Assembly (NCBI GenBank): GCA_027596075.1
Contig: JADGJC010000174.1
Coordinates: forward strand, 1,263 to 65,262
From: Rhizophlyctis rosea
Lineage: Eukaryota; Chytridiomycota; Chytridiomycetes; Rhizophlyctidales; Rhizophlyctidaceae
DNA length: 64,000 nt
Direction of reading: 5' to 3'
The position numbers and the translations under genes are program-made. How positions within the stretch are numbered: position 1 is the stretch's first letter; every line of letters starts with the position of its first letter. Positions 7,183 to 63,469 of the stretch are shown here, piece by piece. The notes under the pieces are model-generated. The model saw only the letters and a program-made list of their open reading frames with translations, was not told the origin of the DNA and made no database searches.

Positions 7183-7284
7183 GGCCTGATAGTATACTTG
7201 GTTTACTACATTGCATATTCAATCATAGGCACTCGTCGGCTCTTTGATCGCAATTTGTTCCCGGTTCGACTCCGGGTCAGGCCA
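7183..7284 (+). tRNA. tRNA gene with a probable intron, anticodon unresolved
   Basis: The acceptor stem GGCCTGA (7183-7189) pairs perfectly with TCAGGCC (7277-7283). The T-arm CCCGG-TTCGACT-CCGGG lies at 7260-7276. Box A TAGTATACTTGG (7190-7201) and box B GGTTCGACTCC match the Pol III consensus. An anticodon stem ATTGC/GCAAT (7210-7214 with 7250-7254) encloses 35 nt, so an intron of about 27 nt in the loop is inferred. Read literally the loop gives ATT, which is not a standard nuclear anticodon, so identity is left open. A T-run about 25 nt downstream could terminate Pol III. Confidence 0.65.
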
Positions 7285-42859: not shown

Positions 42860-45800
42860 TGTGGGAGGGTGGGAAGAGGAAGGGATTTAGTGGTGAATCT
42901 TTTGCTGTAGGCATTTTTCTGCATTTTGTAATATTATGTTTCAAGCTAATGTGCATATGGAAAAGCTTTGCTGTTGAAGGCCCTTTAGTTTTTTTTTGCG
43001 AGATTTGTGTGAGGATGTGTGAGGATTGGAGGGATGTAACTTACTGCTGAGCTTCTGGCGCCAAGGTTTGGGTCTGGCAGTACTCGGGCAGGCATCTCTC
43101 AACCGCGGAATCTTCTTTTTAACGACCAGCAGTCTTCTTCCTTCCATCTATACTTGTTACAAACAGAGCTGGAAAGCAATTCGATGGTATCAACGAGAAG
43201 TATTGAGGGTTGCTATTCAAGAATTTTTGCTCATTGTGTTTTTGGGTCAGGTTTGGGGTTTTGGCTTTTTGGAGAAGGAAGGTGTGGCGGTGGGGTGTGG
43301 TGGCACAATCACGCCGTTGTGTGCAGCTTGTGGCTTGATGATGGATTTTCTGGTTTCTGATTGCGCCTTCCTTCTCTGTCTGCTCCATTCCACATTTCTT
43401 TTCAACTTCCAACCTTGCTTCATCGTCACGCTCGTGTGATTACAACTCACATAATGCAAGGGACATCCGGCACGCATCGTCTCTGCTCTTCGCCACCCGC
43501 AAGACGCTGCGGCGACACATACATTCGTCATTCTCAAAATGGTGCGGTATCAAGTTCAATTCACATTTCCCACTACGCAATGATCATGTATCAGGAGGTT
43601 GGACCACCCCGCGGACGGGGCCAATGGCGGAACAGCACACTACGCCAACTACCTTATTACACCGTCAGCACACCTCATACTCCAAATAATCCTTGGGCAG
43701 CATCGTAGATGGCGTGTATACGACAGCCTCGCTTGAGAGCCTGTTAGGAATTTGCCCTTTTTGGACTAAACGGTGCTGACTACTGTGTCTGTTTCGTCGA
43801 GAGCTGGCCCCGGAAGATGGGGGGATGAGTGGCGGGTTGGGTGGGGATGGATGGGATGTGCGGGTCTCACTATTTGTGGGAGTTGGCAAGATGCTGGCTC
43901 TCACTCCTCTATTCACCATACTAACCGCTCCTCTCTTTTCTTCCTGTATGGGTGCTTCGGCACCACGGCGGACGGAAAGTCAGCAACGGGTCACCAGTAC
44001 TCGCTCCCTCATCCGGTGCAAGTCCTACTGAAATTATCCAATATTCTTGTTGGGTCAGCAGCAACAACACCACTGAAAGCTGGTGGGCATCGGTATCAAC
44101 TACCAAATTCACTTCCAATTCACTACATTATCAACTTCCATTCCCTCTCCTCGTCTTCATGCTTCATCACGACAGTCATTGGCCACCCAGACAACCCAGG
44201 CTACCATCCATCACACTCTGTGTGATGTTTCAGTGGTCTTGTTTGTCGGGACGCCCAACGACGTCGCCTTCCTCCGACCGCATGCTCCCATTTCCTTCGC
44301 TAGTCCGAGCAAGAAGGATGTGGTGGTTGCATCCATCAGCGTACACTGATGGCTCTTCCTGCTAGGCTAGCCTGAGCTGATATAGGAAGGTATGGGTCGG
44401 TGATGGTATCCGACCGTGCATGCTCAGCAATTCGAGGGCTGCGCTGTGGAGTTGTGGAGGGAGAACAGCTCAGCAAACTCGAGGGCTGTCAAATCTTCTA
44501 ATCCATCAATAATAGATCGCCTAGTTCTTCAACCTTCCGAATTGCGCTTCAACTTGGTTAGCCCGAGTCAAGTGGTTGCGCAATGCACTTTTCCTCAAGT
44601 CTAGTCCGAGTCTTGAGGAGTCTTGGTTGGTGACTTCGCTCAACACTGCTTCGACGACAAATACAGTTGCATCTGCCCCGCGATTGAATCAATAGGTTCT
44701 AACGCGAAAAGCTCCGCATGTCTTTGTATACCGTCGGTTGGGGTCCTCTGAACCTGGCCGACTACGGTCCCTGCATTGGTCAATGAGAGATGATAGCACG
44801 TTTTGTCGCTCGCCTGCTATGAGGCCTTTCTTTGGCCGAACACTCAAGTCTCTCTTCGCTTCCGGGAGAGCATGCTCTTGCATTCAGGGGATACAAAAGT
44901 TTGGCCGTTGTTGATCGGTGGTCCTCCGTCTTTGGTTTCGAGACGACACTTTCTTTTTTTTAGTCTCTGCTGTGCAGGCAAACAAAGCGTTTCGGCGCCT
45001 TTGTTTGTGCAGGTTCAACTCCTGCCAGAGACATATCATTACAACAATGCTACATCTGGGTGTGTATACATGTACGTATATACAGGAGCAACGAAGCAAT
45101 GCGAACTCCGTCAATTCGAAGCCTGATCACATTCACCACCGCATTGGGGACAACTTAAGTTCTTTAGTGCTATTACGTGATCGCACCCATATCCATCCCT
45201 ACCAATCATTACTTCGTTATTGTCAGGATGGTGCACCTACTCAATCCAATACCAATTCAGTCCACTGAACACTCGCACTGCACAGAGACTCCCTGATGTT
45301 CAGGTTGACTGTTCAAGTGTAAGGGCCAATGGCGTGTCGGTGCAACTTGATCCTGATTCAGAGCATCATCGCCATTGTCGGGACATCATTGGGATCATAT
45401 TCCATTGCCAGTTGAGTTCCATGCCTAGTTTCCCCTTCCTCTGTTGCTGTGCGCCCTCCTGCGATGGTTTTTGGGACGGGGAGTAAGGGGCCTACAATAG
45501 CTTAGAACTGCAAGAGCGACCATTGAACTTGGTGGCTGTGGGCAATGAAACTGGGCTCACGCTGCGTGTGTATGTCTCCGTGTACGTCACCGTCACCCAA
45601 TTTTCATCCATGGTGAAGAGACTTTGACGGTGCTTCTGACTTCGACTTGCTGAGTGATTAAGGTCGCATTTCCATATCATGTCATTCCCATGGTTTTACT
45701 CACTAACCAGCTGGATTCCAGTCAGAGTGTACGCGGAAGTATCGCCCGGTCTTCCTCCCTATTCTGATAACGATGACAGAATGGCCATCAGCGTGACCCG

Positions 45801-55001: not shown

Positions 55002-56540
55002 ATGTGTGATCTTCCGCTTGAACTCATTCCACCAATTCTCCTCTACCTCCCTCCCGAACAATGCTTCAAAGTTGGTGTAATTTTCCATATTCTCACCGGT
55101 GACCATTCCGTCCGTGACCATGCCATTCCTCTCCTGCCAAACGCCTCCATCGATAAAGCCTCCGGCAAAGCCAAATAGAACTCTTAGAGTGGTGGGTGGA
55201 GTGGAAACGTCAAAAGAAGGGAAGAGTTTTGTCGTACACAAGGGAAAGCATGGATGCAGCCAGTATTAAAGGCCATGTGGAGGTGTTGGAGTGGTGGGGA
55301 CGGAGCGGTCTCAGGATGCGGTACACTTCAAAGGCTATGGATGAGACGATGCACATTGATGTATTAAATTGGTGGAAGACAGGAAGTGGGTTGAAATTGA
55401 CACGACTGAAATGGACCAAAGAGTGTTCCTGGCACGGATATCCCACGTAAGAAGGAGCAATGTTGGTTCTGAATGGCCTCAGTCGTATTCTTCTCTGACG
55501 TTTCAATTTCAGGACCGCCATAGATAGAGCTAGCAGCCTGGGCCATGTTGCCGTTCTAAAATGGTGGAAACGAAGTGGGCTGACTTTTGCATGGTCAGTG
55601 GAGGCTATGACACACGCGTGCATCGGCGGACATGTGGACGTGCTAGACTGGTGGAAAGGAAGTGGTCTTGAGATGAAGTGGTCAGATAAGGCGATCAACT
55701 GGGCTAGCTGGGCCGGGAAGGATGCGCTTCAAGTACTGGACTGGTGGAAATCCAGCGGGTTAGAGATGAAGTGGAGCGCACTAGCAATGGATGGGGCCAG
55801 CGACAAAGGAAGGATAGATGTTCTGGAGTGGTGGAAGGCCAGTGGATTGGAGTTGAAGTGGTCAACATGCGCAATCGATGATGCCTGCAAGAAAGGACAC
55901 ATTGCAGTATTGAATTGGTGGAAGGACAGCAACCTATCTTTAAAGTGGACTTCTGCTGCTCTGGACGACGCTTCCTGGTTCGGCCACCTCCGCGTCTTCG
56001 AATGGTTCCCTCAAACCGGCCTCGAACTCCGCTACACCTCCAATGCTCTTGATTATGCCAGCCTCCAAGGTCACCTTCACGTCCTAGATTGGTGGAAGAA
56101 TGATAGTGGGGTCGAACTCCTTTACACGCCCGATGCCCTGTACTGGGCCAGCTACCGCAAACAACTTGCCGTTTTGGAGTGGTGGAAAGCCTCTGGACTA
56201 CAGATGAAGGGTTGGGCCCACGTAATTTTTCGGGAAGACGCCGCTAATGCGGAGGAGCTACAGTCACATACCAGTCATTCTCTAAGATATATGAAATACC
56301 GGGGCGAGTTTTTGGTGCGGGGGTGGAGTGATGAAATTGTCAATTGGTGGGTGGAAAACTACTCGAACATACAATTTGGTAAGACGTTTTTTAGCTGTTT
56401 CTTGCATCACATATATCCCTTGCTCAACGGTTTTAAATTCTCTTTTCTTTTCAGAACCTCGCGGTCGTCGGAAGACCGCACGCTCGCCTTACGGCTGTCG
56501 ACTTTGCCATTTGGTTGGTCACATTACTTGTCGCTGGTAA
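55002..56540 (+). pseudogene. WW-ankyrin-like repeat protein with zinc knuckle; apparent frameshift
   Basis: The protein starts MCDLPLELIPPILLYLPPEQ, an F-box-like head, followed by about ten 32-aa ankyrin-like units such as GHVDVLDWWKGSGLEMKWSD and GRIDVLEWWKASGLELKWST. The frame breaks near 55175 (ASGKAK, then IELLEWW one frame away); one missing A in the AAA run would restore it, as alignment with the paralogue at 61976-63469 shows. An intron (about 55455-55511) and a second one (about 56381-56454) splice in phase. The last exon ends RSPYGCRLCHLVGHITCRW, a zinc-knuckle-like motif, and stops at 56540. Without that splice the frame runs on to 56587. Protein-binding role inferred from ankyrin-type repeats. 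Confidence 0.72.
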
Positions 56541-57137
56541 TTCTTGCTGTAGCAAAACAAGGAGCGGGGGCTGAGACCCATCAATAGCTTAATCCGTGAT
56601 ACCAACTGTTATGCCACAAAGCAGAAGGGATCTCAATGTCCATTCTCATTGAATCACTGGATGATCAAAATATTGAATGGAGATGGGTAGCACCAGACTT
56701 TCTCCCAGTGACTTGGGGTTGTTGGTAGACCTCTTTGAGGGACAGGACGCTCTTTGGGATTCTATCGAATTTGCTAGGCGAGCGAAAGGCGTCGCGTGCA
56801 TCATTTGAGTCTGCATTATGCGACTGATGACCGCATCGGATACATACACGGATATTCATTTGAAGATTGACAAGTTCGACAATTACACCTGGGGCCTCTG
56901 GACCGGCAAGTTTGAACCCTCGCGACTTGGTGGCCTGTGGCTTGCTATGGCTACAAGGTGGCTTGATTTCCCAGCCACAGATCGCCGGATGGGACGCGCC
57001 ATAACCCTCAGTCGGATCCTGGCTTGCTCTCCATTCTCTCTTTCGTCCCACTCATTTCATCTTTTCGGCCAATTCACATTTTCCCATCCCATTCTCACCA
57101 TCCATCAAGACCATCATTACACATCAACCACAAACAA
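56541..57137. other. Intergenic, upstream of the structured RNA
   Basis: No recognisable gene. The last 60 bases are C/A-rich, and the final AACAAGTCCATGTC is shared with the sequence at the start of the second RNA element. Confidence 0.5.
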
Positions 57138-57486
57138 GTCCATGTCACGGATAGAGTGTTCCCTCTATGTACCGATCCCCCGTCTGATCCGGACCTTGTA
57201 CACGAAGGGTGAGTTACCCGTACTTGGAACGGTGGCCAGGTTATATTACTAGCCTAAGCTACATGGTATCAGACGGAAAGGTGAAGTGCAGTAAGGCACC
57301 TAGGTGTCTTCCCGCTACACTGTCAGGATAAGTTTTGATCCGAACTGGGTACACAAGGGTGAGTTACCCGTACTCAGGGAGGTGGCCAGGTTATATTACT
57401 AGGCCGAAGCCCTTTCGGGGGTATCAAAATGGAAATGACGGGCGGTGAGGGTATCATCTCTAGTGGGTTCGACTCCCACCATGGAC
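57138..57486 (+). ncRNA. tRNA-ended structured RNA element, copy I
   Basis: GTCCATG (57138-57144) pairs with CATGGAC (57480-57486) as an acceptor stem. The T-arm GTGGG-TTCGACT-CCCAC (57463-57479) lies directly inside it, with a perfect box B. Between them are a hairpin ATAGAG/CTCTAT (57151-57168), domain A closed by CCGTCTGAT/ATCAGACGG (57180-57188 with 57268-57276), a central hairpin AAGGCAC-CTAG-GTGTCTT, and domain B closed by TTTTGAT/ATCAAAA (57333-57339 with 57423-57429). Both domains contain a GTAC/GTAC stem, an inner GGGT/ACCC hairpin and GGTGGCCAGG. No protein frame fits. It belongs with the copy at 57751; no known RNA family matches by eye. Confidence 0.6.
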
Positions 57487-57491
57487 CATTC

Positions 57492-57518
57492 GACACAACA
57501 CACGTTGTGTGTTGTGTC
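57492..57518 (+). terminator. 12-bp perfect hairpin just after the RNA element
   Basis: GACACAACACAC and GTGTGTTGTGTC are exact reverse complements around a 3-nt loop, starting 5 nt after copy I. Copy II is followed by a related half (CGTTGTGTGTTGT) without the partner arm. It could stabilise or end a transcript, but no T-run of four or more follows, so a Pol III terminator is not supported. Confidence 0.4.
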
Positions 57519-57622
57519 TTGGTTGTCTTGTGGAGGTGGTGGATGCTCGACTGTCACTTCGTCGATACTGCATGGTGAGTTGACTGTTTGTCACAGAAGG
57601 CGTTTCGTGATGCGCTCTAACC

Positions 57623-57720
57623 TTCATCCATCCTCAATGATACAAGCACCCATCCATCCTCAAGATACGAGCAAGCTCCATCAACATCCATCCATCCATT
57701 CATCCTCAAGATACAAGCAA
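57623..57720. repeat. Short degenerate tandem repeat (CATCCATCCTCAA type)
   Basis: Three units of CATCCATCCTCAAGATACAA type with small variations (57624, 57650 and 57696 onward) lie between the two RNA copies. Simple minisatellite; no function visible. Confidence 0.7.
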
Positions 57721-57750
57721 CTCGCAGCAACACACTCCAACCTCAAACAA

Positions 57751-58111
57751 GTCCATGTCGGATAGGATGCAACCTCTATGCACTGATCCGACGTCTGGTC
57801 TGGAACGAGTACATTAAGGGAAAGCTTGCCCGTACTCAGGAAGGTGGCCTGGACAGATTGTCGGGCCGAGCCCGCAAGGGTACTAGATGGAGGTGAAAGG
57901 CAGCAAGGAAATGGTCCTTCTCGCCACACTGTCATGGAAATCTGGTCTGGACTGGGTACATTAAAGGGAAAGCTTGCCCGTACCCAGGAAAGTGGCCTGG
58001 ACAGATTGTCGGGCTGAGCCCGCAAGGTTATCAGATGGAAGTGATTGGCGGTGAGGGTGCATTCTAGGCCGATGCGCTTCGGCGCGAGTGGGTTCGACTC
58101 CCACCATGGGC
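57751..58111 (+). ncRNA. tRNA-ended structured RNA element, copy II
   Basis: Same architecture as copy I: GTCCATG (57751-57757) with CATGGGC (58105-58111), T-arm GTGGG-TTCGACT-CCCAC (58088-58104). Domain A is closed by CGTCTGGT/ACTAGATG (57792-57799 with 57882-57889) and domain B by ATCTGGT/ATCAGAT (57940-57946 with 58030-58036). Stem GAGTAC/GTACTC in A and CTGGGTAC/GTACCCAG in B, the hairpin CGGGC/GCCCG in both, and AAGGA/TCCTT between the domains are all preserved despite sequence change. A GCGC-TTCG-GCGC hairpin sits where a long variable arm would be. Conservation of pairing rather than sequence supports a functional RNA. Confidence 0.6.
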
Positions 58112-58508
58112 CATAAATCGTTGTGTGTTGTTTGCGAGTGTATGTAGTTGTGCGTGATGGATATCTGATAAAGTTTTGTAATAAATGAGTGTGCACAATA
58201 CTATACTGGTGCGTTGCGTCTGTGCCGTGAACATTATTACACTCATATCGAATTTCAAAATCTGTTATATCAAACGACGATGCGTATCCTGCTTCATAGG
58301 TCTACATCTTAACCCCTCCTTCCTTCCGGGTATCCCTTGTTCCTTTGTCAACTTCACACACACATACATCCCTGCGTCAATCATGCAGCTGGCCACGCAT
58401 GATTATGTTTTGAATGTTTATAAATTCGAATATCTACAGCCAACCGGTATATACAACGCATGAACAGCATGCGTAAGTCGCCCGCCTAGAAAGCGGAACT
58501 GAAGCACT
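58112..58508. other. Intergenic, nothing recognised
   Basis: Lies between RNA copy II and the 3' end of the F-box/ankyrin gene. AT-rich; no gene or repeat seen apart from the short GTTGTGTGTTG match to the flank of copy I. Confidence 0.5.
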
Positions 58509-60560
58509 TCAGGGCCCCTCAGAAACCGCAACAGACACATTCCCATGCCCGTGACTACTCCCACTCCCACCAAACATCCTAAACTCGCTCCCAACACCCG
58601 CAGAACCCCCAACACCACCCCCTTCCTGTCCCTTCCCAACCCACGCCCCACAAATCGCATCCATCGTCCTCCTACTAACCCCCAAAACCCTACACACATC
58701 CGCCCCATACCTAACCAAACACTCCACAACCCCTTTACACCCCCTGCCAACCGCAACCCTCAAAGGCGTCTCATCCAAACACCCAACCTCAACCCCAAAC
58801 CGACACAAAACCTCCACAACATCCACCCACCCCCCACGAACAGCACTACAAAGCGCATCAACGCCCGCAGCACCCTTCACGTCCGCCCCGTACTCGCAAA
58901 GCAACTTCACAAGTGGGGCGTTACCCCTCTGTGCCGCGTCACGGAGGAGGACATCGCCTGCGGTGCGGGCGTCGGCGCCGTGGGAAAGGAGGAGGGATAC
59001 GCAGTTTAGGGATGAGTCCGTGCATGCTAGGCGGAGGGGCCAGTGGGTTGTTGTGTCGGGTGAGACGGGGAAGCCGAGGGAGAGGAGGAAGCGGAGGAGG
59101 TTGTGGTAGTCGCGGGTTAGGATTAGTTCGTAGATGTCGTATGTTAGGAATGGGTCGTGGAGGGATGCGCGGCGGTGGAGGGGTTGGGGTTTTGAGGGGT
59201 GAGAGGGGGAGGGATCTAGGATGGTACGGATGAAGAAGAATAGTTGGGGTTCGGAAAAGGCCGCGTAGTCTATCTTTAGATCGCTTAAAGCCGCGTTACG
59301 ATGACGGAGAAGGAAAGAAAGGATGTCGATAGACTCTTGACTAGGTTCAAACACATCCCCAACCTTCTCAAACCGCGTTTGCAACGCCGCTACGATCTGA
59401 TTGATATCGATATTATACTTATAAGAGTCCGTCCACATCGCTCGACGGCCCGTGCCATACAGGAATGGTGAAGAGAGCGGTAAAGGAATGGCGGAAATGA
59501 CGGCCCATTCGATGGATTTGTCGAGGAGTTGGTCTCGCCGGTCGGACGGGATCATTCCTACGCCGCGTTTGAGGACTGGGAGGGACATGGATTGGGTTAT
59601 GCTGTGATATAGCACGTCGTCGACAACTTGGGAGGTGTCGGCGCTTAGTGGGAGGAGACGATCGATGACATCCGGATGGCCTGACCAGGCGGCGAAGGCG
59701 ACGAGCACGCCGAGCTCGTCTGGAGCGATGCGGATGGTTGGGGAAGGTGAGGTGAGGCAGGCGATGAAGAGGGAGAGGCACGATTCGAGGCGTTTGGTGC
59801 AGATTAGACGGAGGAGGAGACGGATGGATCTAGCGGGTTCTGACATGCCGGTGCTGGTAACGATTATGGCGGTGGACCGTCTCGCAAGATGCGGGATGGA
59901 GTTACCAGAAGGGGTACGTTTCGTGGTCGGACGAACAGGCATGACAATCGGGATGCTCTCAATTGCCGAATCTCCCACATCCCCAACGACATTCCTCCCA
60001 CCCTTCAAAACTCCCCACTCCTCCAACATCCTCACCAAAACCTCATCCCCCATCAACCCAACCGGACACCCACTCAGCGCAGCACCAAAACCCGGCGCCG
60101 CATACCCCATCACATCATCCAAAAACTCAAACTCCCCACACTTCCCAACCTCCGGCAGGCGAGGGAACTGGGCACGCAGCCATGCGCGCCGCGTGGTGTT
60201 GGATTGACTCAACGCATGGAACGCCCGGCAGCTTTTCGTGAATGCCGCGGGGTGAGAGACGAAGACGAAGATGGATATTAGGAGTTCGGGTGAGAGACTT
60301 AGGAGAGATTGGAAGGGTTGTGCCGTTCCGGGTGGTGTAGATGGACCTAGTGTCGATGACAATGGGTTCATGGTTGGAACTATTGCCAAGTCGTTGGCAT
60401 AATCGGTTTGCGGTGTTGGGTGAAAAGTAAAGCGAGGTAAGAAAGACGTGCTGGTGCCGGTACTTGTACTAGATGGTGGACCGGGGATGGAATCATGGAG
60501 CATCTCTTGAAGCAGGAAATCGTTCGGGCAATAGTGGGGAAAGTTGGGTTGCGAAGACAT
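58509..60560 (-). CDS. F-box-like protein with C-terminal ankyrin repeats
   Basis: Single exon, 683 aa. After a disordered N-terminus, residues 85-130 read LSLSPELLISIFVFVSHPAA and FTKSCRAFHALSQS, the pattern of an F-box, so an SCF ubiquitin-ligase substrate receptor is a possibility. The C-terminal 250 residues contain ankyrin repeats: HWPLRLACTDSSLNCVSLLL, GDVLLRDAAQRGNAPLVKLL, DALCSAVRGGWVDVVEVLCR and ETPLRVAVGRGCKGVVECLV. The extreme C-terminus is Gly-rich. GC skew and codon style match the neighbours. Target unknown. Confidence 0.85.
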   Translation of the reverse strand: MSSQPNFPHYCPNDFLLQEMLHDSIPGPPSSTSTGTSTSFLPRFTFHPTPQTDYANDLAIVPTMNPLSSTLGPSTPPGTAQPFQSLLSLSPELLISIFVFVSHPAAFTKSCRAFHALSQSNTTRRAWLRAQFPRLPEVGKCGEFEFLDDVMGYAAPGFGAALSGCPVGLMGDEVLVRMLEEWGVLKGGRNVVGDVGDSAIESIPIVMPVRPTTKRTPSGNSIPHLARRSTAIIVTSTGMSEPARSIRLLLRLICTKRLESCLSLFIACLTSPSPTIRIAPDELGVLVAFAAWSGHPDVIDRLLPLSADTSQVVDDVLYHSITQSMSLPVLKRGVGMIPSDRRDQLLDKSIEWAVISAIPLPLSSPFLYGTGRRAMWTDSYKYNIDINQIVAALQTRFEKVGDVFEPSQESIDILSFLLRHRNAALSDLKIDYAAFSEPQLFFFIRTILDPSPSHPSKPQPLHRRASLHDPFLTYDIYELILTRDYHNLLRFLLSLGFPVSPDTTTHWPLRLACTDSSLNCVSLLLSHGADARTAGDVLLRDAAQRGNAPLVKLLCEYGADVKGAAGVDALCSAVRGGWVDVVEVLCRFGVEVGCLDETPLRVAVGRGCKGVVECLVRYGADVCRVLGVSRRTMDAICGAWVGKGQEGGGVGGSAGVGSEFRMFGGSGSSHGHGNVSVAVSEGP

Positions 60561-61975: not shown

Positions 61976-63469
61976 TTATTCCTCCTCCTCTGCTTCTTGA
62001 ATCCTCTTCAACCCAGTACCTGCCTTTCCCTTCCACCAGCGCGAACTCCCTAACCCACTGGATTTCCACCATTTGACCACCTCAACTTGACCATTCTCCT
62101 CCGCCACACGCAATGCAGCATCCGTAAACTTCATCTCTAACATGTTCCTCCGCCACCACAAATTCCATAGACCGTATCCGCCCTCTGGCCCCCTAATCGC
62201 TGCCTCCCTCCACCATTCCAAAACATCCACACGGCCGTCCCTGCTCGCAAGATACATCGCCCAGTGTGTATATTTCAGCTTCAATCCACTGGCCCACCAC
62301 CATTCCAACACATCCACATGTCCTTTCCCACTCGCGAAATCAAGAGCATCCGCCGAATACTTCAATTCCAAGCCACTACTCTTCCACCATTCTAACACCG
62401 CAATATGGCCGTTCTCACTTGCACCGTCAATCGCGTCCTTCGTGTATTTCAGTTCGAGCCCGCTCCGTTTCCACCACTCCAGCGCGCCAACATGCCCGTG
62501 CGCGCTCGCGCCGTTAATCGCCCAATGCGTATAATTTAGATCCTTCCCCCAACGCTTCCACCAATCTAAAATGTGAACGTGCCCCTGTTTACTCGCCCCG
62601 TCCAAGGCCCATCCCTCCCACCCAGCAGCTACTGACTGTCGATGGTTGTCGTACCGCATCACCAACCCGCTCTTAGCCCACCATTCCAACACATCCAAAT
62701 GACCGTTTAGGCTAGCCCAACTCAATGATCCTGAGGTATACACTAGGGGCAGGCCGCTATCTTTCCACCATTGTAAGACGGATACATGCCCATGTCTAGA
62801 AGCTTCATCCATGGCGTTTGAAGGGGAGAGGTACTTCAAGGTCAATCCGCTCGATTCCCACCATTGAAGGACCCGAAGGTGACCATTCATACTTGCTTCT
62901 CTCAGAGAATCACGGGAATAGAAAATCTTCATCCCACTGTTCTTCCACCACTCCAACACCTCATGAAAGCCCTTGCTGCTGGCGGCATCCATGACATCTT
63001 CATAGTATAGGCGGTAAGGAACTTTGAGCGGGAGGTTGGAGGACTTCCACCAGTTGAGGACGGTGATGTGGTTGTTGTCGCACGCCTGTTGGATTGCCGC
63101 CCCTGTATACTTCAACTCAAGACCACTGGATAACCACCAGTCTAGGACGGGAATGTGCTGGTTTTTGCTTGCGAGGTCCATTGCGTCTGATGAGTATGTG
63201 AGGAGGGGTGCCTTTCCGTGACCATTCGAGGCAGTCCTTTGATTTTTCCTTCTAGTGGCAACATGTGTCCACCAAGTAAGTAAGTCGACTTGTCCTTTCC
63301 GGGAAGCATCATCTAAGCTGGTGTAGGGAAGGATCGGAAGGACGCTGTCTCGGAGGTGGGGGTACCCATAACAAACTGCAAGGATAACACCGATTCGAAA
63401 GGAGGTCAAACGGGGGACGACGTCGTGAATGAGGATCAGGTGGAGGAGTTCAACGGGCAGCTGGAGCAT
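61976..63469 (-). CDS. WW-ankyrin-like repeat protein
   Basis: Single exon, 497 aa. The head is MLQLPVELLHLILIHDVVPR, F-box-like, followed by a spacer and about 12 units of 32-33 aa whose core is HVDVLEWWKSSGLELKYTxx with AIDxAS. The two tryptophans and the LKYT turn are kept in nearly every unit. These units resemble divergent ankyrin repeats and probably form a binding solenoid. The C-terminus is acidic (QEAEEEE). It is the intact paralogue of the gene at 55002-56540 and lacks that gene's zinc knuckle. Function unknown. Confidence 0.87.
   Translation of the reverse strand: MLQLPVELLHLILIHDVVPRLTSFRIGVILAVCYGYPHLRDSVLPILPYTSLDDASRKGQVDLLTWWTHVATRRKNQRTASNGHGKAPLLTYSSDAMDLASKNQHIPVLDWWLSSGLELKYTGAAIQQACDNNHITVLNWWKSSNLPLKVPYRLYYEDVMDAASSKGFHEVLEWWKNSGMKIFYSRDSLREASMNGHLRVLQWWESSGLTLKYLSPSNAMDEASRHGHVSVLQWWKDSGLPLVYTSGSLSWASLNGHLDVLEWWAKSGLVMRYDNHRQSVAAGWEGWALDGASKQGHVHILDWWKRWGKDLNYTHWAINGASAHGHVGALEWWKRSGLELKYTKDAIDGASENGHIAVLEWWKSSGLELKYSADALDFASGKGHVDVLEWWWASGLKLKYTHWAMYLASRDGRVDVLEWWREAAIRGPEGGYGLWNLWWRRNMLEMKFTDAALRVAEENGQVEVVKWWKSSGLGSSRWWKGKAGTGLKRIQEAEEEE

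Follow-up and report, generated by a model that had tools for sequence, protein, structure and literature searches.

What kind of RNA gene begins and ends like a transfer RNA (tRNA) when most of the inner half of the tRNA has been replaced by other structure? The question is raised by two neighbouring elements, W1 (57138-57486, 349 nt) and W2 (57751-58111, 361 nt), lying 264 nt apart in a 64,000-nt stretch of the genome of the chytrid fungus Rhizophlyctis rosea (44.1 Mb, 634 contigs; the stretch, hereafter the window, covers contig positions 1263-65262). A first-pass annotation had reported here a duplicated RNA element with tRNA ends and two internal domains, and its locus boundaries were found to be correct. 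We favour, with a probability of roughly two in three (0.68), the reading that W1 and W2 are two genes from a family of structured non-coding RNAs with several copies in this genome, which would be made by RNA polymerase II (Pol II) and would acquire their ends through RNase P and tRNase Z.

Judged by their sequences, W1 and W2 are true paralogues in tandem. Folding z-scores were -3.25 for W1 and -3.23 for W2, and equally stable folds were seen in 0/100 dinucleotide shuffles of each. The elements are built from the following parts.

57138-57486, + strand: W1, tRNA-framed RNA element with two internal domains (multicopy alignment A1)
57138-57144, + strand: W1 acceptor-like stem, 5' strand GTCCATG, partner 57480-57486
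57152-57158, + strand: W1 helix H2, 5' strand TAGAGTG, partner 57456-57462
57182-57274, + strand: W1 domain a, P1 57182-57188/57268-57274
57194-57201/57220-57227, + strand: W1 domain a P2, two U-U mismatches
57207-57210/57216-57219, + strand: W1 domain a P2b
57234-57237/57252-57255, + strand: W1 domain a P3, one mismatch (P4 of this domain is weak)
57293-57310, + strand: W1 linker hairpin AAGGCAC/GTGTCTT
57318-57324, + strand: W1 linker helix CACTGTC, which closes domain b, partner GGCGGTG 57441-57447
57333-57429, + strand: W1 domain b, P1 57333-57339/57423-57429, P2 57345-57352/57370-57377
57357-57360/57366-57369 and 57384-57387/57402-57405, + strand: W1 domain b P2b and P3
57456-57462, + strand: W1 helix H2, 3' strand ATCTCTA
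57463-57479, + strand: W1 T-arm GTGGG TTCGACT CCCAC
57480-57486, + strand: W1 acceptor-like stem, 3' strand CATGGAC
57751-58111, + strand: W2, tRNA-framed RNA element with two internal domains
57751-57757, + strand: W2 acceptor-like stem, 5' strand GTCCATG, partner CATGGGC 58105-58111
57758-57769, + strand: W2 helix H2, 5' strand, TCGG 57758-57761 pairing with CCGA 58069-58072
57763-57769, + strand: second segment of W2 helix H2, TAGGATG, pairing with CATTCTA 58060-58066
57793-57888, + strand: W2 domain a, P1 57793-57799/57882-57888
57805-57812/57832-57839, + strand: W2 domain a P2, inner part pairs
57846-57849/57864-57867 and 57870-57873/57878-57881, + strand: W2 domain a P3 and P4
57905-57919, + strand: W2 linker hairpin AAGGA/TCCTT
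57927-57933, + strand: W2 linker helix CACTGTC, partner GGCGGTG 58047-58053
57940-58036, + strand: W2 domain b, P1 57940-57946/58030-58036, P2 57952-57959/57980-57987
57994-57997/58012-58015 and 58018-58021/58026-58029, + strand: W2 domain b P3 and P4, C-U mismatch in P4
58060-58072, + strand: W2 helix H2, 3' strand
58074-58085, + strand: W2 variable-arm-like hairpin with a TTCG loop, without counterpart in W1
58088-58104, + strand: W2 T-arm GTGGG TTCGACT CCCAC
58105-58111, + strand: W2 acceptor-like stem, 3' strand CATGGGC

The acceptor-like stems (GTCCATG/CATGGAC in W1, GTCCATG/CATGGGC in W2) and the T-arm GTGGG-TTCGACT-CCCAC inside both loci are as first described. Also found again were the stems that close the four domains, together with the GTAC stems and linker hairpins listed at that time. 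The 5' acceptor strand precedes the T-arm by 325 nt in W1 and by 337 nt in W2.

A multicopy family and its tRNA-like frame

The duplication is larger than the two loci noted at first, and homologues exist elsewhere in the same genome. A DNA search of the R. rosea genome, the only fungal sequence searched, gave 14 matching stretches that yielded 11 intact copies including W1 and W2 (201-381 nt), and a domain model run on 30 loci added one degenerate copy, C57 (L046, 31.3 bits), omitted from the 11-copy tables, besides a weak similarity in L029 (29.1 bits). Exact patterns had no match in viral contigs or in prokaryotic genome contigs. Two domains are present in 8/11 intact copies and one in 3/11 (C431b, C20, C460). 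C431b and C46 form the closest pair (93.7% identity over 207 nt, 89.6% over 259 nt); the best matches elsewhere in the genome reach 83-86% for W1 and 74-82% for W2. In the best copy pairs the homology extends beyond the element, upstream to -110 to -145 and downstream to +62 to +99, and therefore at least some duplications took the promoter side and the trailer along; in many other pairs it ends within a few to about 35 nt. Moreover, first and second domains group by position in W1, C431a and C124, and elsewhere mostly by copy, a pattern that suggests an old two-domain form followed by homogenisation or repeated duplication.

That the outer frame is a tRNA with most of its inner half replaced is supported by the acceptor, the T-arm and a further helix, H2, absent from the first list. 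Across 22 elements of three families, 152/154 acceptor cells are canonical and 11 are double-changed, as in 0/1000 shuffles; most of these double changes are a single A-U to U-A difference between families, and none occurs within the 11 copies of the W1/W2 family. H2 pairs the segment after the acceptor with the segment before the T-arm or the variable arm. Its variants (TAGAGTG/CACTCTA, TAGGGTG/CACCCTA, TAGGATG/CATTCTA and TAGAGCG/TGCTTTA) include three kinds of compensatory change, and in the 11 copies 74/77 cells are canonical, with five double-changed at three positions, matched by 0/2000 shuffles that ignore the relatedness of the copies, H2 itself having been located by anchoring on the T-arm or GGCCG. 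The weakest H2 is that of W1, with five contiguous pairs and two past a one-base bulge in its own minimum-free-energy (MFE) fold; W2 holds a 9-bp run, TAGGATGCA/TGCATTCTA, and the unconstrained MFE folds of both contain the helix.

Furthermore, the 7-bp acceptor is joined by a 5-bp T-arm with a 7-nt TTCRANN loop, T-loop variants being found in two of the 11 copies (C20, C431b), and 4/11, including W2, have a variable-arm segment, 19 to 127 nt long. Neither a D-arm nor an anticodon arm with a 7-nt loop was seen in W1 or W2. The domains are enclosed by the acceptor, H2, the T-arm and, in some copies, a variable arm, a layout like that of transfer-messenger RNA (tmRNA). Running from acceptor through H2, insert and variable arm to T-arm, the parts are arranged as in tmRNA, or as in a class II tRNA whose anticodon loop has been replaced.

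The domain is a unit of roughly 100 nt with four stems, in which P1, P2, P2b, P3 and P4 are supported. Alignment A2, made with MAFFT, holds 19 domains from the 11 genomic copies, and its 27 pairs give 510 cells, of which 91.4% are canonical; with the partners slid out of register, only 30-41% are. Changes on both sides occur in nine pairs and 27 cells, where letter shuffles give 5.8 pairs (nine reached in 23/500) and 8.4 cells (27 reached in 0/500); further pair types are not above these shuffles (30 vs 31.4). A tree-aware null, which preserves the tree, the changes per column and, where possible, the commonest base of each column, gives 4.1 double-changed pairs (nine reached in 2/500), 8.1 double-changed cells (27 reached in 0/500) and 86.3% canonical cells (91.4% reached in 2/500). 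The linker helix CACTGTC/GGCGGTG is canonical in 56/56 cells of the eight two-domain copies with 0 double changes, which speaks for conservation only.

Flanks, proposed end formation and the origin of the predicted transcripts

Both elements lie between flanks of recurring composition.

57023-57137, + strand: W1 upstream region, pyrimidine-rich and then a CA-rich, G-poor leader ending ACAAACAA, homologous to C431a to -115
57487-57552, + strand: W1 trailer, CAT followed by GU-rich sequence, homology with C431a to +66, no T4 (run of four T) within 100 nt
57716-57750, + strand: W2 CA-rich leader
58112-58156, + strand: W2 trailer, CATAAA and then GU-rich, first T4 at 62 nt

A 35-nt direct repeat, 83% identical (57112-57146 and 57725-57759), takes in 26 nt of leader and the first 9 nt of the element. 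Over the 22 elements the leaders contain 40% A, 35% C and 6% G, with a pyrimidine-rich stretch upstream, and the trailers are GU-rich, in some cases with CATAAA first; GTGTGT occurs within 60 nt downstream in 10/17 representatives, vs 0.33 expected. In the same genome, T4 lies within 45 nt downstream of 18/18 tRNAs (sampled from 63), compared with 2/22 elements, both of them in group F2 (described in the last section), and 0/11 copies of the W1/W2 family. This contrast in terminators points away from RNA polymerase III (Pol III), although the T-arm resembles a B box.

In the reading that we favour, the pyrimidine-rich stretch would act as a promoter from which Pol II probably makes a precursor that carries the CA-rich leader and the GU-rich trailer. 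Cleavage by nuclear RNase P ahead of G1 (57138, 57751) and by tRNase Z past the acceptor would leave a stable RNA with its ends protected as in tRNA, to which CCA may be added. The position of the anticodon loop holds one or two copies of the domain, a putative protein- or ligand-binding module. The model for this proposed maturation by RNase P and RNase Z is that of mascRNA and menRNA (PMC12941219, PMC4919922).

Several observations weigh against this reading. The 5' segment of H2 can alternatively form a local hairpin with CTCTAT in all 11 copies (65/66 cells canonical, no double change), and RNAalifold on alignment A1 returned this 5' hairpin, not H2. It could be a folding intermediate or serve a second conserved function. 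Since this segment after the acceptor has two potential partners, one local and one on the T-arm side, closure of the frame may have to wait until the 3' end has been made, a possible built-in check of completeness. In a strict per-pair test, an APC-corrected (average product correction) G-test with a tree null that is a home-made approximation of R-scape, E<0.05 was reached in only 2/27 pairs (one in P1, one in P2), and the all-against-all version leaves no significant pair. Since the pooled measures beat their nulls and only these two pairs are significant singly, support for the domain fold is good when all pairs are taken together and weaker for pairs taken one at a time; the compensatory change that the first-pass annotation took as the signature of selected RNA structure is thus upheld against the tree null in the pool, and for most pairs not individually. 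The linker helix and several stems are invariant, so covariation says nothing on them, and imposing the proposed pairs costs 8.6 (W1) and 12.3 (W2) kcal/mol relative to the unconstrained MFE. Leader-trailer pairing exceeds 95% of mononucleotide shuffles in only 6/11 copies (2/9 in F2 and 0/2 in a further group, F4). An open reading frame (ORF) starting MSRIECSLY is present in W1, C431b, C442b and C46, with 36, 57, 41 and 99 codons, respectively; the neighbourhoods of W1/W2 and of C442b both contain ankyrins; and the B-box-like T-arm (GGTTCGACTCC) of most copies would also suit Pol III. Finally, the evidence for the family is drawn from one genome, that of R. rosea, and the loci are known here from DNA alone.

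The B-box-like T-arm is also the starting point of the alternative that survives best, in which the elements are Pol III-transcribed, tRNA-derived regulatory RNAs with the T-arm as B box, an unusual internal A box and unusual termination. Internal T runs never exceed four in the 11 copies, which is in its favour, but such a T4 does occur inside 4/11 (W1, C431a, C124, C135), T5 is found in 2/9 F2 loci, T5 hairpin loops are present in another group, and longer T tracts lie inside group F3. An A box was not evident by eye, and no copy has T4 in the first 45 nt downstream, where every sampled tRNA has it; hence we consider Pol III origin rather unlikely.

A retroposon origin is less probable still. 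It would make the copies tRNA-derived elements of the short interspersed (SINE) type, their RNA structure being selected for retrotransposition, and the dispersal of the copies, their tRNA-like end and their internal domain duplication are in line with it, as is the 93.7% identity of C431b and C46, which suggests that some copying was perhaps fairly recent. The conservation of flanks to -110/-145 and of the trailer in the best pairs is not what RNA-mediated copying of the element would leave, however, and the best matches of W1 and W2 stand at the lower identities given above. No poly(A) tail was seen by eye, and the T-arm sits at the 3' end, whereas typical tRNA-SINEs have their tRNA part at the 5' end.

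Comparison with known RNA families

At gathering thresholds Rfam returned no match for W1 or W2, that is, no intron, tRNA-SINE or other family, and at a low threshold six sub-threshold matches were obtained, none of them credible. Group I and II introns, RNase P and the signal recognition particle, set aside by eye in the first-pass annotation, are absent from both sets. As far as these searches reach, the family matches no RNA family found. The tmRNA-like shape without sequence match, also remarked at the outset, is borne out by H2, which closes the interior, and by the lack of a tmRNA match in W1 and W2.

Bacterial tmRNA has a tRNA-like domain layout and pseudoknots. With tmRNA (SsrA, RF00023) the elements share an acceptor and T-arm, a long helix standing where the anticodon stem would be, a large multi-domain insert and a length of about 350 nt. 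Unlike tmRNA, the W1/W2 family is nuclear and eukaryotic, consists of divergent paralogues, has homologous four-stem domains where tmRNA has pseudoknots, sometimes carries a variable arm, and lacks a common mRNA-like frame, an SmpB match and a sequence match. The tmRNA model of Rfam gave an 18-nt T-arm match in L049, a locus of a different group, at 18.5 bits vs 47 needed. A functional counterpart of tmRNA in eukaryotes, one that enters ribosomes, would account for the shared topology, with no true D stem, a long helix at the anticodon-stem position and a large structured insert; it is nevertheless very improbable, given that the family has no common reading frame, that W1 and W2 lack a tmRNA match, and that SmpB (PF01668) had 0 matches in the genome with a control positive in 10/14 genomes, a search that a highly divergent, intron-split or organelle-encoded protein could escape.

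In mascRNA and menRNA (RF01684) a tRNA-like module likewise sits on a non-tRNA RNA, but there it is a small piece that is removed from the 3' end, whereas the frame of W1 and W2 encloses the RNA; the Rfam model was sub-threshold over the W2 T-arm (15.7 bits vs 42.5 needed). Bacterial Y RNA (YrlA/Deinococcus) is a regulatory RNA with a tRNA-like end, of different size and interior, and its model was sub-threshold over the W1 T-arm (16.8 bits vs gathering 80). The Ro60/TROVE domain PF05731 had 0 matches in the genome, the control being positive in 1/14 genomes (Deinobacterium chartae), and a Ro-bound Y RNA is therefore unlikely. For the major vault protein (PF01505) there were 0 matches in the genome, and 0 control genomes matched either.

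Class II tRNAs (Ser/Leu) have the order of acceptor, variable arm and T-arm seen in W2-type copies; in contrast, the W1/W2 family has neither a D-arm nor an anticodon loop, contains other structure over about 290 nt and lacks a terminator. ARAGORN with the bacterial code found no tRNA in the window and, in 19 other loci with a similar T-arm, made one doubtful call, L030, to which no anticodon was assigned. Very long introns inside real tRNA genes, which the tRNA frame, the insert at the anticodon position and a possible intron-bearing tRNA-like gene elsewhere in the window (7184-7283) might bring to mind, are hardly credible, as H2 runs directly into the insert, a 5-bp stem with a 7-nt loop is not recognisable, the insert structure is conserved, ARAGORN (whose bacterial code perhaps allows no introns) is silent and a Pol III terminator is absent.

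A GT..AG intron was rejected on the element ends, which are ..GGAC or ..GGGC and not AG. A protein-coding reading was likewise rejected, no frame being common to the family in an analysis that could miss very short frames; 226/266 pairwise gaps are not multiples of 3.

Other groups with the same tRNA-like end

The T-arm and acceptor pattern occurs 38 times in the genome at up to three mismatches, and 0 times in the reversed control. Mechanically framed loci total 47, made up of the W1/W2 family (12 including C57) and four other groups. This count is rough: the searches of the genome score the top candidates only, chance may account for some of the D-arm calls, and two further F2-like matches, on C23 and C112, are unframed and outside it. 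Pattern matches are not all members: 11/37 share GCGTTGGGC, nine of those 11 in tRNA genes.

Group F2 comprises nine loci, in which an acceptor and a TCGG..AGTG/CACT..CCGG helix enclose one domain and a second arm another; one of them, C149, lacks the first domain. F4 has two loci. At L022 (C431, about 132390) a T-arm site lies beside a tandem F2-like repeat (GGATGCTAAGAACAA) broken by an N run. On contig C431, at 75-142 kb, T-arm sites of the W1/W2 family, F2 and F4 and one unassigned site, eight in all, form a local cluster of about 66 kb.

In a further group, 10/21 scripted loci show a 4-5-bp D-arm with GG in the loop, these ten having been chosen because the D-arm was visible. The chance rate in them is 35.0% of positions for a loose hairpin and 10.2% with GG; a strict definition (5 bp, close to the acceptor, GG) brings the rate to 3.6% and is satisfied by 9/10 loci; 9/57 decoy starts have a GG D-arm hairpin. 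Two adjacent mid-stem pyrimidine mismatches are kept in the acceptor of 7/10 D-arm loci (L031, L043, L049, L053, L092, L093, L096), with GTCCTTG, GTCCTCG or GTTCTTG facing CTTGGAC or CTTGAAC. The motif CTTTTTG, mostly a hairpin loop, recurs in L042-L045, L049, L051 and L053.

Fourteen loci of F3 were read, among 18 genomic pattern matches, and one lies in the window at about 44720-45032. Here a compact tRNA-like module follows a long pyrimidine tract and terminates, on the 3' side, a longer conserved sequence that contains hairpins, a layout closer to MALAT1-mascRNA than that of W1 and W2.

About 44963-45032: F3 module in the window, GTCTCTG..GCAGG-TTCAACT-CCTGC-CAGAGAC

In the 10/14 F3 loci framed by script, 69/70 cells of the mini acceptor are canonical and four double-changed; L063, L064, L065 and L067, which have shorter hairpins by eye, are outside that count. 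In copies L065 and L069 a hairpin unit like ACTCAAGTCTCTCTTCGTTCCGAGAGAGCA is repeated several times, imperfectly and in tandem; most others have it once.

From their sequences the groups have the frame in common, and no common descent is claimed for the interiors. Tentatively, and with less than even confidence, we propose that they may represent a large class of nuclear, Pol II-made RNAs with a tmRNA-like tRNA frame, shared in one chytrid by several families with very different interiors, for which tRNA processing would be a general route of end formation and stabilisation, the D-arm with its GG loop being apparently part of the frame in one group. The known cases of tRNA-like ends on RNAs that are not tRNAs are mainly bacterial tmRNA, viral 3' ends and the MALAT1/NEAT1 pair of vertebrates, and to our knowledge early-diverging fungi have been little explored for non-coding RNA. 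Such RNAs in chytrids were the subject of no report among the open-licence PubMed Central matches listed. According to a 2025 paper (PMC12941219), MALAT1 and NEAT1 are the only long non-coding RNAs using tRNA maturation; other RNase P substrates, e.g. yeast HRA1, are nevertheless listed in a review (PMC4919922). If the proposal is true, dozens of structurally conserved tRNA-framed RNAs would make tRNA-like ends a recurring way to produce stable RNAs, and would offer a natural series of frames and inserts in which to ask which features are recognised by RNase P, tRNase Z and export factors.

Elsewhere in the window, 7184-7283 may be an intron-bearing tRNA gene, not called by ARAGORN, with an acceptor GGCCTGA/TCAGGCC, an A-box-like TAGTATACTTGG, a T-arm CCCGG-TTCGACT-CCGGG and a T6 run downstream. 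Among ten ORFs neighbouring family copies at five loci, 8/10 have Pfam matches of mixed kinds (cyclin, SF3A2, ankyrin in two, ThrE, thioredoxin-like, RanBP-type zinc finger and exportin). Ankyrin-repeat genes flank W1 and W2 in the window (55598-56587, 58509-60560 and 61976-63469), the named matches of a WWK-type ankyrin protein of the window are mostly chytrid proteins, and similar ankyrins are found in chytrids and giant viruses.

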